Positions 4,679 to 44,763 of a stretch of 64,000 nt of DNA are shown one piece after another (position 1 is the first letter of the stretch; each line of letters starts with the position of its first letter). The notes beneath the pieces were generated by a model. That model did no database searches, had not been told where the DNA came from, and was given only the letters and a program-made list of their open reading frames with translations. This stretch comes from Halobacteria archaeon AArc-dxtr1 (GTDB lineage: Archaea; Halobacteriota; Halobacteria; Halobacteriales; Natrialbaceae). The stretch spans positions 1,040,217-1,104,216 of the forward strand of contig JAOPJY010000001.1 of assembly GCA_025517425.1 (NCBI GenBank), read 5' to 3'. Both the position numbers and the translations under genes were made by a program.

Positions 4679-5713
4679 CTATCCTGACAGCGAGTGTTCG
4701 TGCTCGGGACTGTCGACTCTGTTCGGACTATCGATCGATTCGTTCGGGAGCGAGGCAAAGCGGATCCCCCGGGAAGGGGTCCACTCCTCGGCCTCCCAGT
4801 CGGTGACGAGCAGCGTGCCGTCGCTCGTCTTGACGACGAACTGGTCGCTGGGTTCGAAGACCTGCACGACGGTTCCCGGCTGGGCGTCTAACAACAGGTC
4901 GGCCGAGAAGGGCTGGGCCTCCCAGATCGTGACCCGGGTGCCGTCGTGGTTGGTGAACGCGCCGGGGTATGGGTGGCCGACGGCCCGGATGAGATTATAG
5001 ATCGTCTCGGTCGGATCCGCCCAGTTGATCGCGCCGTCGTCGGGATTCCGTTTCGGGTAGTAGGTCGGCTGGGCGGACTGTGTCTCGAACTCGGCGGTCC
5101 CCGAGAGCACGTCAGCGACGCAGTCGTCGAACAGCTGCTGTCCGATCATCACGAGCTTGTGGTACAGCGACTGGATCGTGTCGTGGCGATTGATATCGAA
5201 CTTCTGCGTGGCGACGACATCGCCGGAGTCGGCCCCCTCATCCAGGTGCATCACCGAGAGGAGGAATCGATCAAGTCCCTCGATGAGCGACCAGTTCATC
5301 GGCGAGCGACCGCGTCCCTTGGGCAGTCCGAAGGCAGAGCCATGGAGTCCGAGCGCTCCGTGGGTGAACGTCCCTAATACGTCGCCGGGAATGAGACGCT
5401 GCCAGCCGTGGACGAGCAGTAGGTCGGCGTCTACGTCGCGAAAGTGGTCGGCGTCCGCGTCGGTCATGCCGTAGGTCTCGGGACAGTAAACCGAGACGTC
5501 GTTCTCGGCAGCGTACTCGCGGTGATCGTAGTAGCTACAGACGCCGTATTGCTCGCCCTGTTCCGGTCGGAGCGTGATGAGTTCGTCCACCGGGACGATT
5601 TCCTCGTGGACGTACCGGAAGAGGTCGAAGCCGGCGTCGGTACAGCTCGCGAAGACGACGCGAGCGTCGGAAAGCGACGCCACAGCGTCGTCGGGAGATG
5701 TGGCGGAGGACAT
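4679..5713 (-). CDS. Formyltransferase-family protein (sugar N-formyltransferase-like)
   Basis: The 344-residue protein has the Fmt/ArnA-type fold. A Rossmann-like N-terminal half contains ADLLLVHGWQRLIP and the formyl-folate site region LHGSAFGLPKGRGRSPMNW at residues 123-141, with H124 and D162 (DEGADSGDV) as two of the usual catalytic triad. The Asn that normally precedes His by two (N-x-H) is Gly122 here. A C-terminal OB-like domain (about 230-320) follows, as in tRNA-Met and amino-sugar formyltransferases. With WecB downstream and a deacetylase-like gene 8 bp upstream, an amino-sugar is the likely acceptor. Acceptor and activity are inferred. Confidence 0.82.
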   Translation of the reverse strand: MSSATSPDDAVASLSDARVVFASCTDAGFDLFRYVHEEIVPVDELITLRPEQGEQYGVCSYYDHREYAAENDVSVYCPETYGMTDADADHFRDVDADLLLVHGWQRLIPGDVLGTFTHGALGLHGSAFGLPKGRGRSPMNWSLIEGLDRFLLSVMHLDEGADSGDVVATQKFDINRHDTIQSLYHKLVMIGQQLFDDCVADVLSGTAEFETQSAQPTYYPKRNPDDGAINWADPTETIYNLIRAVGHPYPGAFTNHDGTRVTIWEAQPFSADLLLDAQPGTVVQVFEPSDQFVVKTSDGTLLVTDWEAEEWTPSRGIRFASLPNESIDSPNRVDSPEHEHSLSG

Positions 5714-41173: not shown

Positions 41174-42319
41174 ATGGATCTCACCGACCGAATCGCGCGT
41201 CGGCGCGCGTCTCGACTGGGACGAGACGTTCTCGTCGATCACGAAGAGCTGAGCCCCGTAACCCACCGACCGAATCCGGTGGGACGGGGGCCGGTGTTAG
41301 AGCGGCTGCTCGATAAGATCGAGCCGGTATTCGATACCCAGTTGCCGCCGTCGTTTGCGGTCGTCGGACCGTTTGGGTCGGGTACATCGGCGGTCATCAG
41401 AGCCCTGTTCGATGCGCTGAACGACCGGGTTGGAAACTCGAACCGTGCGATCGGAACCACCACTCGCGCCGGGGGAACGATAACCTGGTTCGTCTACATC
41501 GATGGGCGACGGGTCGACAGTCCGTTCGCGTTCTACCGAGCGCTGCTGTCTGGCGTCGCCGCCGAATCGGTCCCCGAAAGCGGCGTCGGAACCGACTACT
41601 TCCGCGATCGCATCCGAGAGCAACTCTCGCGGCCCGACCGGCGAGCCGTCGTCGCGATCGATCACCACGACGAGCCGGGCGCACTCCCGTTCGACCGCGT
41701 ACAGGAATTGTTGGAGCCGGTCGCAGAGAGCGTCTCGGCGGTCGCGGTCGGCACCCGCGAGCCGGCGGATTGGGACGGGGAGACCGTAGACATCCCAGCC
41801 TACCGCCAGCACGAACTCGTCGACATCCTCACCGACCGCGCCTCGCGGGGCATCGCACCCGGCGGCGTCGATCACGAGTCGATTCGCCGAATTGCCGCCT
41901 GGGCGGACGGCAACGCTCACAACGCGCTCGCGGCGCTGTTCGGGGCTGCAATGCTTGCGAACAACGCGGGGGTCGATCGGATCGCACCGGACCACGTCGA
42001 GGCGGCGATGGCCGACGTCCCCACCGACGGCGTCCACGCGGATCGAGCGCTCTCGCTATCGGAGACACGACGGGAGGTGTTACTGGCACTCACGGAAAGC
42101 GAGATCGACGAGTTGCCCATCCGGGAGGTCGCAGCGAGGCTGGCAGACAAAACGAGCTTGACCGAAGGGACCGTGACGCGTGTCCTCTACGAACTCGCCG
42201 ACGCGGCGGTTCTAGAGCGTGTCGCGATCCAAGCCTCCGGATCCGGACGGCGCCCGAGTACGGTCGAAGCACGGTTCCCGACGATCGTTTTCCGCTCGCT
42301 GGCCGGCGTGGATCGATAA
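41174..42319 (+). CDS. Orc1/Cdc6-family protein with degenerate Walker motifs
   Basis: The 381-residue protein follows the Orc1/Cdc6 AAA plan: LSPVTHRPNPVGRGPVLERL at 27-46, P-loop region VVGPFGSGTSAVIRALFDAL at 63-82, sensor and lid helices (IRRIAAWADGNAHNALAALF), and a C-terminal winged helix (about 300-375). The invariant P-loop Lys is Thr71 (GSGTS instead of GSGKS), and the Walker B acid pair is D163-H164. ATP hydrolysis is therefore unlikely. It begins 3 bp after glpC, so it may be read from the glp transcript, and is followed 63 bp later by the CHAT gene. A structural or regulatory DNA-binding role is more likely than origin firing. Confidence 0.85.
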   Translation: MDLTDRIARRRASRLGRDVLVDHEELSPVTHRPNPVGRGPVLERLLDKIEPVFDTQLPPSFAVVGPFGSGTSAVIRALFDALNDRVGNSNRAIGTTTRAGGTITWFVYIDGRRVDSPFAFYRALLSGVAAESVPESGVGTDYFRDRIREQLSRPDRRAVVAIDHHDEPGALPFDRVQELLEPVAESVSAVAVGTREPADWDGETVDIPAYRQHELVDILTDRASRGIAPGGVDHESIRRIAAWADGNAHNALAALFGAAMLANNAGVDRIAPDHVEAAMADVPTDGVHADRALSLSETRREVLLALTESEIDELPIREVAARLADKTSLTEGTVTRVLYELADAAVLERVAIQASGSGRRPSTVEARFPTIVFRSLAGVDR

Positions 42320-42382: not shown

Positions 42383-44479
42383 ATGGGTATCGAATTCGGA
42401 CGGACGGAGACCCCCACGGGGCTCGTAATTACGGACCCAATCGAGCAGCGCCAGTTGCAGGTTCGAACGCCCGCACCCGTCTCCCCGGCGTCAATCGACA
42501 CGGACCAGTTCTGTTTCCCGGTCGACACAGCCTGTACGATCGACACCGAGTCGCTCACGTTCAACCAACGGTACTCGGTCCACGTCCACGACGAGAACGG
42601 ACAGTCGATACGGAGCCTCGAGGTCGGAGATACCTGTACGCTCGATGGCTCGCTCCGGTTTGTCGGACTTGGCGGTCCGATCAAACTCTACTGTCGGATC
42701 GCAGCACCCGCACAGATCGAGGCAGGGATCGACTCGATTCGCCTCTCCTTCGCGGACGTCTCCCGGGTTGCAATCGGTGCCCGATCGCTCCACGAACAGC
42801 CCGCAGGAACGATCCAGACGCCGGACGATCCCGAGACGATGATGCGTGCGGTCTCTGCGCTCTCGTCGGCGCTGAAGACGACATCAGTAGAGCGGTCGTG
42901 GCCGACGCTCCGGGGACATCCACCGCTACTCGAACGCGGCGACGAACTCGAGATTCCGGAGCTGGTCTCACCGACAGAAACGGGAGTGACGATTACGGTC
43001 CCAGCGACGCATCGGGAGCTGTACACCGTCGCGCCACTCTCGTTTTACCTCGGAGCACGAATCGAGGCGGGATCATCCCCCCGACTCGAAGCAGACGGTT
43101 TCGAGTACGCCTTCGACGCGACAGCCCTCGAAGACGACGTCGCTCGGACGCTCCGTCAACTCGTCTTTCTTGATAGCCTGGTTCGCACCGAAGGGTTGTA
43201 CCGCGACGAGCTCCACGAACGGGTGGCACTCGAATCGACGCTCCCGTTCGATCTCGGGGCGCTCTACGGAGCGCCCCTCTCCGAACAGCTCGCAACGTAT
43301 CTCCAGGTTCCCTACGACGTGCTCGAACCGCACCTTCCCCGCTGGCCACTGACCGCGTACGTTCCCGGAGAGCCAGACGGGGTTGAGATACTCCCGTACG
43401 TCGTCAACGAACTCGGGATTGTCCGAGCACCCCGTGGCACGACTATCGAGCCGTCAGCCGATCGAACCGCGGAATCCGGGCTCACGCGTTCGGTCCGGTC
43501 GCCGCGCTCACCCGATCCAACGGCGGGTTCGACGGACCGGTCGTCAGATCTGCGAGTCGTCGAGCCGGCGGTCGTCGACGGCTCGATCGAACACGCCTGG
43601 TTCGGTCCAGACGTCCCCCACAACGCCTCGAAAGCCCTCGTCGAATCGTTCCACAATCAGCTGTCCCGGTCGGCCCGAAGTGAGACGATCGAGATCCTCG
43701 TCGTCTGTAACGACGCGCGGATGCTAGAAGAACACGACGTCCTCGGCGAGACCTACGGCAGTCGAGAGGCGCTTCCGTTCAACGTCGACTCGAAATTCGG
43801 CGTTTCACGGGCCGAACTCGCCACCCTACTACGTGATGGTGGATACGACTTCCTGCACTTCATCGGCCACGCCACGCCCGACGGACTGCGGTGTTCGGAC
43901 GGAGAACTCGACGTACGCGAGTTAGCGACGATCGATCTCGGTGTCTTCTTCCTCAACGCGTGCCAGTCGTACCAGCAGGGAGTCGCGCTGGCTCGGAAGG
44001 GAGCGTTCGGCGGTATCGTGACGCTCGAGGATATCGATAACAGCGAGGCCGTCGAATCCGGCGAGACCATCGCCCGGCTGTTAAATCTGGGCTTTCCGCT
44101 CAGAGCAGTGCTCGAACTCTCCCAGGAGACAGCCGCACTCGGCGAGGAGTACCTGATCGTTGGCGACGGCTCGACCGATATCGCTCAGTCCGACGGCGGG
44201 GCACCGATCGTCGTCCGCCTCGGAACCGACAGCAGCGAACCGATTCGATTCCAGACCTACACGACGAAAGAGCTCCAGATCGGCACTGCCAGCGCACCGA
44301 TGGTCGAAGCGATCACACAGAAGTATTTAACCCCCGGAGAGATCCGGAATTCGGAGCTCGAGCCGGCCGATCTGGAGTCGTATCTCACTTGGACGCGCAC
44401 GCCGCTGCTGATCGATGGGTCGTTTCTGTGGAACGATGGGTTGGGAGCGGTCGAGATCCCACCCGCAGTCTGGACGTGA
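42383..44479 (+). CDS. CHAT-domain (caspase-fold) protein, haloarchaeal type
   Basis: The 698-residue protein has a C-terminal CHAT domain. DFLHFIGHATPDG carries the predicted catalytic H496, and FFLNACQSYQQG carries the nucleophile C527, followed by the family's GGIVTLEDI strand. The preceding segment SRSARSETIEILVVCNDARM starts the caspase-like sheet near 435. The N-terminal 400 residues are beta-rich and then helical, with no recognised domain, and could be a sensor or substrate-binding part. A charged flexible linker spans about 355-400. CHAT proteases act in bacterial defence and in regulated proteolysis. Here the partners may be the Orc1-like protein upstream and the 45-residue membrane peptide gene 4 bp away on the other strand. 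Confidence 0.85.
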   Translation: MGIEFGRTETPTGLVITDPIEQRQLQVRTPAPVSPASIDTDQFCFPVDTACTIDTESLTFNQRYSVHVHDENGQSIRSLEVGDTCTLDGSLRFVGLGGPIKLYCRIAAPAQIEAGIDSIRLSFADVSRVAIGARSLHEQPAGTIQTPDDPETMMRAVSALSSALKTTSVERSWPTLRGHPPLLERGDELEIPELVSPTETGVTITVPATHRELYTVAPLSFYLGARIEAGSSPRLEADGFEYAFDATALEDDVARTLRQLVFLDSLVRTEGLYRDELHERVALESTLPFDLGALYGAPLSEQLATYLQVPYDVLEPHLPRWPLTAYVPGEPDGVEILPYVVNELGIVRAPRGTTIEPSADRTAESGLTRSVRSPRSPDPTAGSTDRSSDLRVVEPAVVDGSIEHAWFGPDVPHNASKALVESFHNQLSRSARSETIEILVVCNDARMLEEHDVLGETYGSREALPFNVDSKFGVSRAELATLLRDGGYDFLHFIGHATPDGLRCSDGELDVRELATIDLGVFFLNACQSYQQGVALARKGAFGGIVTLEDIDNSEAVESGETIARLLNLGFPLRAVLELSQETAALGEEYLIVGDGSTDIAQSDGGAPIVVRLGTDSSEPIRFQTYTTKELQIGTASAPMVEAITQKYLTPGEIRNSELEPADLESYLTWTRTPLLIDGSFLWNDGLGAVEIPPAVWT

Positions 44480-44483
44480 GCAA

Positions 44484-44621
44484 TCAGGGACCGGGATTGC
44501 TTGCTGCACCGCCAGCGAGCGCCGAACTGGCCTGACTGAGGAGGATCATCAGCGCGAACAGCGCGCCGATCATTCGAGGGTGTGATGCGAGGTAGTCTTT
44601 CATTCGGTCTGTCGTTGACAT
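44484..44621 (-). CDS. 45-residue membrane micro-protein (DUF7503-like)
   Basis: Reading leftward from ATG 44621, the peptide MSTTDRMKDYLASHPRMIGA continues into one hydrophobic segment (GALFALMILLSQASSALAGG) and a short GAASNPGP tail. The stop at 44484 lies 4 bp from the convergent CHAT gene stop. The pattern of an amphipathic lead with HPRM, one membrane helix and a Gly/Pro tail resembles haloarchaeal DUF7503 micro-proteins, which I recall near regulators and caspase-like genes. That link is from memory. An AT-rich promoter box lies upstream. It might be a membrane target or signal peptide of the CHAT system. Confidence 0.72.
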   Translation of the reverse strand: MSTTDRMKDYLASHPRMIGALFALMILLSQASSALAGGAASNPGP

Positions 44622-44654: not shown

Positions 44655-44664
44655 CTTATCTTAT
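44655..44664 (-). promoter_or_regulatory. TATA-like box of the micro-protein gene
   Basis: CTTATCTTAT (plus strand; ATAAGATAAG on the coding strand) lies 34-43 bp upstream of the ATG at 44621, so a short leader is expected. Confidence 0.5.
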
Positions 44665-44763
44665 AGTTACAGATACATGGCTGAAAAATTCCGGAAACGA
44701 CTCACTGATCGCGACAGGGATCCTAAAATTTACCCGCGTGTGACTCACCCACACGCAACTCAC

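Follow-up and report, generated by a model that had tools for sequence, protein, structure and literature searches.

The locus described here lies within the window, the whole 64,000-nucleotide stretch of DNA that was analyzed, which belongs to a host genome of 2.8 Mb, and it comprises a gene for a CHAT caspase-fold protein and, on the opposite strand, a convergent gene for a short DUF7503 peptide (Table 1). A preliminary description had reported both genes, and their coordinates were confirmed, with 4 bp (44480-44483) separating the two stop codons. The separate promoter that it had assigned to the peptide gene was likewise borne out by a TATA-like CTTATA located 39-44 nt 5' of the ATG of the window peptide and by the AT-rich DNA found upstream of DUF7503 genes across the 102 homologues compared. 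Upstream of the CHAT gene lie glpA, glpB, glpC and an Orc1/Cdc6-like ATPase gene, and downstream of the pair lie a DUF368/VCA0040-like transporter gene and AglB, the Glp and AglB assignments being presumptive names read off the sequences without a profile search; this glpABC/DUF368/AglB synteny is conserved for the window copy of CHAT. The Orc1/Cdc6-like protein is divergent (TIGR02928, 76.8 bits against a cut-off of 181). In many Natrialbaceae its gene is interposed between glpC and CHAT; it was rejected as an obligate partner because it is absent beside CHAT in several relatives having both GlpC and CHAT.

Table 1. Features of the window locus and of related loci. The L and C1 prefixes denote loci and a contig outside the window; residue numbers refer to the CHAT protein.
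Feature	Coordinates	Strand	Details
Orc1/Cdc6-like AAA+ ATPase	41174..42319	+	Directly upstream of CHAT
CHAT caspase-fold protein	42383..44479	+	698 aa, ATG start; ORF, alignment and AlphaFold/Foldseek
N-terminal motif LKTTSVERSWPTLRGHPPLL, residues 164-183	42872..42931	+	Consensus LKTTSPERSxPTLRGHPPL; R171 and R177 invariant (alignment)
Putative catalytic His496 codon	43868..43870	+	H in 136/136 homologues
Putative catalytic Cys527 codon	43961..43963	+	C in 135/136 homologues; the exception is a truncated ORF
CHAT domain layout, N-terminal side			Beta-sandwich 1-146; alpha/beta 150-350
CHAT domain layout, C-terminal side			CHAT protease domain ~400-600; C-terminal beta region ~600-698
DUF7503 micropeptide MSTTDRMKDYLASHPRMIGALFALMILLSQASSALAGGAASNPGP	44484..44621	-	45 aa; convergent to CHAT
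Parts of the window DUF7503 peptide			HPR motif; conserved helix; site resembling A-x-A; Gly-Pro-terminated tail GGAASNPGP
TATA-like box of the peptide gene	44660..44665	-	CTTATA (TATAAG on the minus strand); sequence
DUF7504 gene	L104:4330-5025		Directly upstream of CHAT in this genome's second DUF7503-type pair
Clade-B micro-ORF of this genome MGNIIWCVRRIGVAFDRTISCTELVFLCRSKRISTYRGP	L119:~4870-4989 (C1:~725370-725490)		Convergent to clade-B CHAT
STYGGP/STYSGP peptide genes	L208:3924; L209:4042; L210:3839		CHAT absent from the 8 kb examined

The identification of the larger protein as CHAT was upheld by fold search and by its His/Cys dyad, although its divergent sequence matches the Pfam CHAT profile below threshold (19.9 bits, cut-off 24); CHAT was the only Pfam family matched at E ≤ 1. 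A full-length AlphaFold model, computed from a 99-sequence alignment, reached a mean pLDDT of 92.7 and a pTM of 0.93, and its best Foldseek matches in the PDB were SAVED-CHAT (1.4e-7), separase (3.4e-6) and the TPR-CHAT of Craspase (2e-5), with matches covering mostly ~200-250 residues. As modeled, the protein is of the caspase/separase type. The dyad residues are placed as the preliminary description had them and are almost invariant among homologues (Table 1), so that the protein is assigned a His/Cys catalytic dyad and its proteolytic activity is predicted. Structure prediction had been proposed for the N-terminal 400 residues; residues 1-350 do fold confidently when modeled alone (pLDDT 96.7), but no solved structure matched them at E ≤ 0.001, and no TPR fold appears among the matches listed for this region. 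Assignment of the N-terminus by fold was rejected, the best matches being weak glycosidase (GH31) beta-sandwiches (E ≥ 3.5e-3), and a PDB sequence profile search returned nothing meaningful. The protein contains no hydrophobic stretch resembling a membrane helix (19-residue Kyte-Doolittle maximum 1.06, versus 1.87 for the peptide) and is taken, in the model proposed below, to be soluble and probably cytosolic.

The window peptide clearly belongs to Pfam DUF7503 (PF24335), which it matches over residues 4-45 with 72.5 bits, above the curated cut-off of 27, and for which the Pfam entry gives no function. It had been described as a one-helix peptide; the helix is indeed there, but comparison of 103 non-redundant DUF7503 peptides reveals a more elaborate architecture. 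All 103 carry a Pro followed by a basic residue in an HP[RK] motif (rarely NP or RP), followed by an invariant Phe at +8, a strongly conserved segment (GxLFTxxLLLSQAGxxAA) and, in 102 of them, a small-x-Ala motif at the same place. The almost uncharged tail beyond this motif spans 7-10 residues and takes 96 different forms among the 103 peptides, while 30-33 residues separate HP from the C-terminus throughout. The peptides end in Gly-Pro in 97 of 103 cases, versus 0.5% of background ORFs, leaving six that end without it. At this end the full sets of four Gly, four Pro and three stop codons are used, and such free variation indicates that selection acts on the protein end. Positive residues occur almost exclusively on the N-terminal side of the helix, a charge bias that predicts a tail lying outside, away from a cytosolic CHAT, and the overall pattern is compatible with either a single-span membrane peptide bearing a short outside tail or a cleaved export peptide.

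CHAT homologues are present in all 125 genomes of the Natrialbaceae, the family of the window, and across the class they were found in 52 of 59 sampled near-complete haloarchaeal genomes, with DUF7503 in 49. All 66 DUF7503 genes of this sample are located at most 1.5 kb from the 3' end of a CHAT homologue, a position into which a single DUF7503 match would fall by random placement with a chance of ~0.001, and 65 of them are convergent to CHAT, with gaps of 3-287 bp. No genome among the 59 carries DUF7503 without CHAT. The preliminary description had suggested a micro-protein dedicated to the protease, and both this and the conservation of the neighborhood beyond near-identical strains are supported by these counts, the pairing spanning several haloarchaeal families, paralogous copies and plasmid contexts and holding for both DUF7503 genes of this genome (the window and L104). 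This genome encodes three CHAT genes, each with one GP-ending peptide opposite, the tails being GGAASNPGP (window), TSSSYPGP (L104) and KRISTYRGP (L119). Among 148 genomes sampled across the phylum, DUF7503 is confined to the order of the window and CHAT homologues reach a few non-haloarchaeal genomes; no GP peptide was found beside these methanogen-like homologues. The lone same-strand DUF7503 gene (L094:6485-6631), situated 1.4 kb from CHAT, also lacks the terminal GP.

Some CHAT paralogues have no detectable peptide nearby, namely that of L115, those in the arrays of L116-L118 and L120, and several clade-B members (see below). Tandem CHAT paralogues occur in L116 and L118, and in L117, L118 and L120 a convergent gene ending in RLGSRDNFWGN accompanies the peptide-less CHAT paralogues. 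The CHATs of L116, L117, L118 and L120 miss several residues conserved in peptide-paired CHATs, these array members differing for example at E270, R280, E450 and W683. A search for residues tracking either the peptide-less arrays or the loss of GP in the six peptides revealed differences that are confounded by phylogeny, and these were not retained as candidates.

The CHAT tree comprises the DUF7503-bearing clade and a second, ancient clade (clade B), which is present in 113 of the 125 Natrialbaceae genomes under a strict threshold, adjoins a TbsP-like regulator gene at 17 of 20 sampled loci and is not accompanied by DUF7503. At 26 of 30 clade-B loci in the Natrialbaceae there is instead a convergent ORF of ~40 codons ending in (AK)RVSTY(G/S)GP, which shows wobble-position variation and changing stop codons; in 34 such micro-ORFs the ATG start is preceded by a TGTTATTGTA-like stretch and by a shared TATA box at about -30. 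The encoded peptide matches no Pfam family and appears soluble, having no helix, signal segment or HPR, and some copies end in RASGVSTYSGP, without the basic pair. The micro-ORF of this genome (L119) belongs to the same family without a Pfam model and encodes 39 residues counted from the second ATG. A DNA pattern derived from the clade-B tail matched 87 times in 84 of the 125 genomes, versus once for a reversed control pattern, and for 76 of the 87 matches a listed clade-B CHAT lies in convergent orientation no more than 650 bp away; at least four more were found by inspection to be convergent to CHATs below the listing threshold. L208 keeps the tbsP neighborhood and the peptide gene but has no CHAT there, the single clade-B CHAT listed for that genome lying at a distance of 77 kb, and additional peptide genes occur in L209 and L210, where the 8 kb examined contain no CHAT; the existence of peptide genes apart from CHAT argues for a trans-acting product. 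GP-ending peptides resembling transmembrane segments accompany some clade-B CHATs (L129, L131), and these few sequences suggest that the CHAT-peptide pairing may be older than the clade split. L160 and L161 each encode a second micropeptide, MEPMLILEVSTALY...NRVSTYSGP, in addition to that opposite CHAT.

The preliminary description had suggested that the pair would be a compact suicide or stress system and pointed to the part of CHAT proteases in bacterial defense. A role in suicide or defense finds no backing in the genomic context: the window copy sits in the conserved glpABC/DUF368/AglB synteny, the other clade lies beside tbsP, and many CHAT copies occupy conserved chromosomal contexts. 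CHAT and the peptide matched no PADLOC model and nothing in a phage collection, no relative was found in viral contigs, and a defense-island or CRISPR reading was discarded for this reason; no gRAMP/Cas7-11 genes were recognized among the ORFs of the window neighborhood. Copies are present on haloarchaeal plasmids (25 records). A DUF7504 gene (PF24336) lies directly upstream of CHAT in ~20 of 61 DUF7503-type loci, and in two cases it is fused to a HalOD1 output domain, a context that hints at signal transduction rather than defense. DUF7504 was dismissed as an obligate partner, being directly upstream in only ~20 of the 61 loci and present in several other copies in the genomes.

DUF7503 is thus obligately paired with CHAT, the dyad is conserved, and the Gly-Pro end recurs in two dissimilar peptide types. 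With a soluble peptide in the second CHAT clade, a membrane helix cannot be what all these predicted products share, and the common element is the Gly-Pro C-terminus. Our tentative reading, held at somewhat less than even confidence, is that the peptide is the cognate control ligand of its CHAT and is read through its free C-terminal Gly-Pro. The locus would then represent a two-gene haloarchaeal module in which a soluble CHAT cysteine protease is matched with a micropeptide of its own, whose gene is transcribed toward CHAT from a separate promoter and which would act as an activator or inhibitor of the protease; in the DUF7503 type, the membrane helix or signal-like segment would tie the location of the peptide to the membrane, whereas the second type would be soluble. 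The shared position of the two peptide types, together with their shared Gly-Pro, suggests the free C-terminus as the element recognized by CHAT, and from this we infer physical binding, and control rather than cleavage. This reading has to contend with the predicted outside location of the tail, the six peptides without GP, the CHATs without a peptide and the peptide-less methanogen-like homologues.

Bacterial gasdermins are substrates encoded next to CHAT proteases, and within clan CD certain proteases cleave behind basic residues. The window peptide might similarly be a substrate or effector, cut by activated CHAT, for example at the invariant HP-R/K near the membrane, to free a membrane-acting fragment, and an adjacent substrate is also known for the CHAT protease Csx29, in the form of Csx30 (PMC10028731). 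This is possible, if unlikely, given that the second peptide type has neither helix nor HPR, that some of its copies lack the basic pair, and that the two genes are convergent with their own promoters instead of forming an operon. What the two types have in common is their C-terminus and not an internal motif resembling a cleavage site, and for this reason, and since independent promoters are in keeping with a regulator, the control-ligand reading is favored. The uncharged and highly variable 7-10-residue tails behind an almost fixed small-x-Ala motif would also be expected of an exported signal, in which a Sec-type segment is cut after that motif and the GP-ending tail leaves the cell, is taken up again and is read by CHAT. 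RRNPP systems are marked by a propeptide gene that directly adjoins the gene of its intracellular receptor and carries the mature peptide C-terminally (PMC10075063). The DUF7503 segment is, however, far more conserved than usual signal peptides, the second type has no signal segment, neither a TPR receptor domain nor a linked transporter was identified, and the tail variation may reflect a neutral spacer; we regard export of this kind as improbable. Slightly less so, yet still improbable, is a hitherto unrecognized haloarchaeal class of peptide-gated caspase-fold proteases, an archaeal peptide-pheromone/caspase system in which each CHAT paralogue reads its own linked micropeptide via Gly-Pro and the DUF7503 tail is exported as a species-specific signal.

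The conflict between a cytosolic CHAT and a tail predicted outside would be reconciled if the pair sensed membrane or export stress, failed insertion of DUF7503 leaving the GP tail in the cytosol and turning CHAT on, and the DUF7504 and HalOD1 associations described above would accord with such a role. Every step of this scheme is conjectural and the soluble second type would need a different trigger, making it a long shot. The proximity and convergence of the genes could finally reflect nothing but coincidental vertical synteny or cis-antisense regulation without a functional peptide; this is scarcely credible in view of the recurrence of the pairing in paralogous and plasmid contexts, the gaps of up to 287 bp, the synonymous variation around a fixed protein end and the peptide genes located apart from CHAT.

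The window protein has the CHAT fold and His/Cys dyad in common with SAVED-CHAT, separase and the TPR-CHAT Csx29. Unlike SAVED-CHAT and Csx29, it has no detected TPR, SAVED or CRISPR partner, and it differs from the Craspase arrangement, a TPR-CHAT with gRAMP/Cas7-11; its partner is a convergent micropeptide of 40-50 aa. Csx29-Csx30 (Craspase) and CHAT-gasdermin pairs likewise place CHAT beside a dedicated partner, but their partners are larger substrates, whereas here two dissimilar micropeptides have in common only their position and C-terminal dipeptide. The RRNPP pairs PapR/PlcR and Shp/Rgg resemble the locus in sequence pattern, in that a tiny gene for a propeptide, a putative one in the present case, with a variable tail after a hydrophobic segment, adjoins the gene of an intracellular protein (PMC10075063). 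Their receptors are nonetheless TPR proteins of 250-500 aa, while the protein here is an archaeal caspase-fold protease of 698 aa without identified TPRs, and the propeptide/export-segment pattern seen in the DUF7503 sequence is absent from the second peptide type.

A literature search of open-licence PMC articles found no mention of DUF7503, and its pairing with CHAT and its terminal Gly-Pro appear to be undescribed, as, apparently, is the soluble clade-B micropeptide of ~40 residues. The analysis gives a domain of unknown function a function-bearing context, reveals a second micropeptide gene family covered by no Pfam model and links the two through a single feature, the terminal Gly-Pro. 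The module offers a test case for the control of caspase-fold proteases outside CRISPR and eukaryotes. Among 114 archaeal genomes, a survey of caspase homologues in prokaryotes detected metacaspases in only 5, and its text does not mention CHAT (PMC3501461). In Haloferax volcanii a caspase-like activity has been reported for which the responsible protein was not identified, and which the proteasome or another protease may cause (PMC3615174). The CHAT family is put forward here as a proposed source of this haloarchaeal activity, for which it supplies genetically tractable candidates, and DUF7503 is carried by H. volcanii, as seen in control matches.
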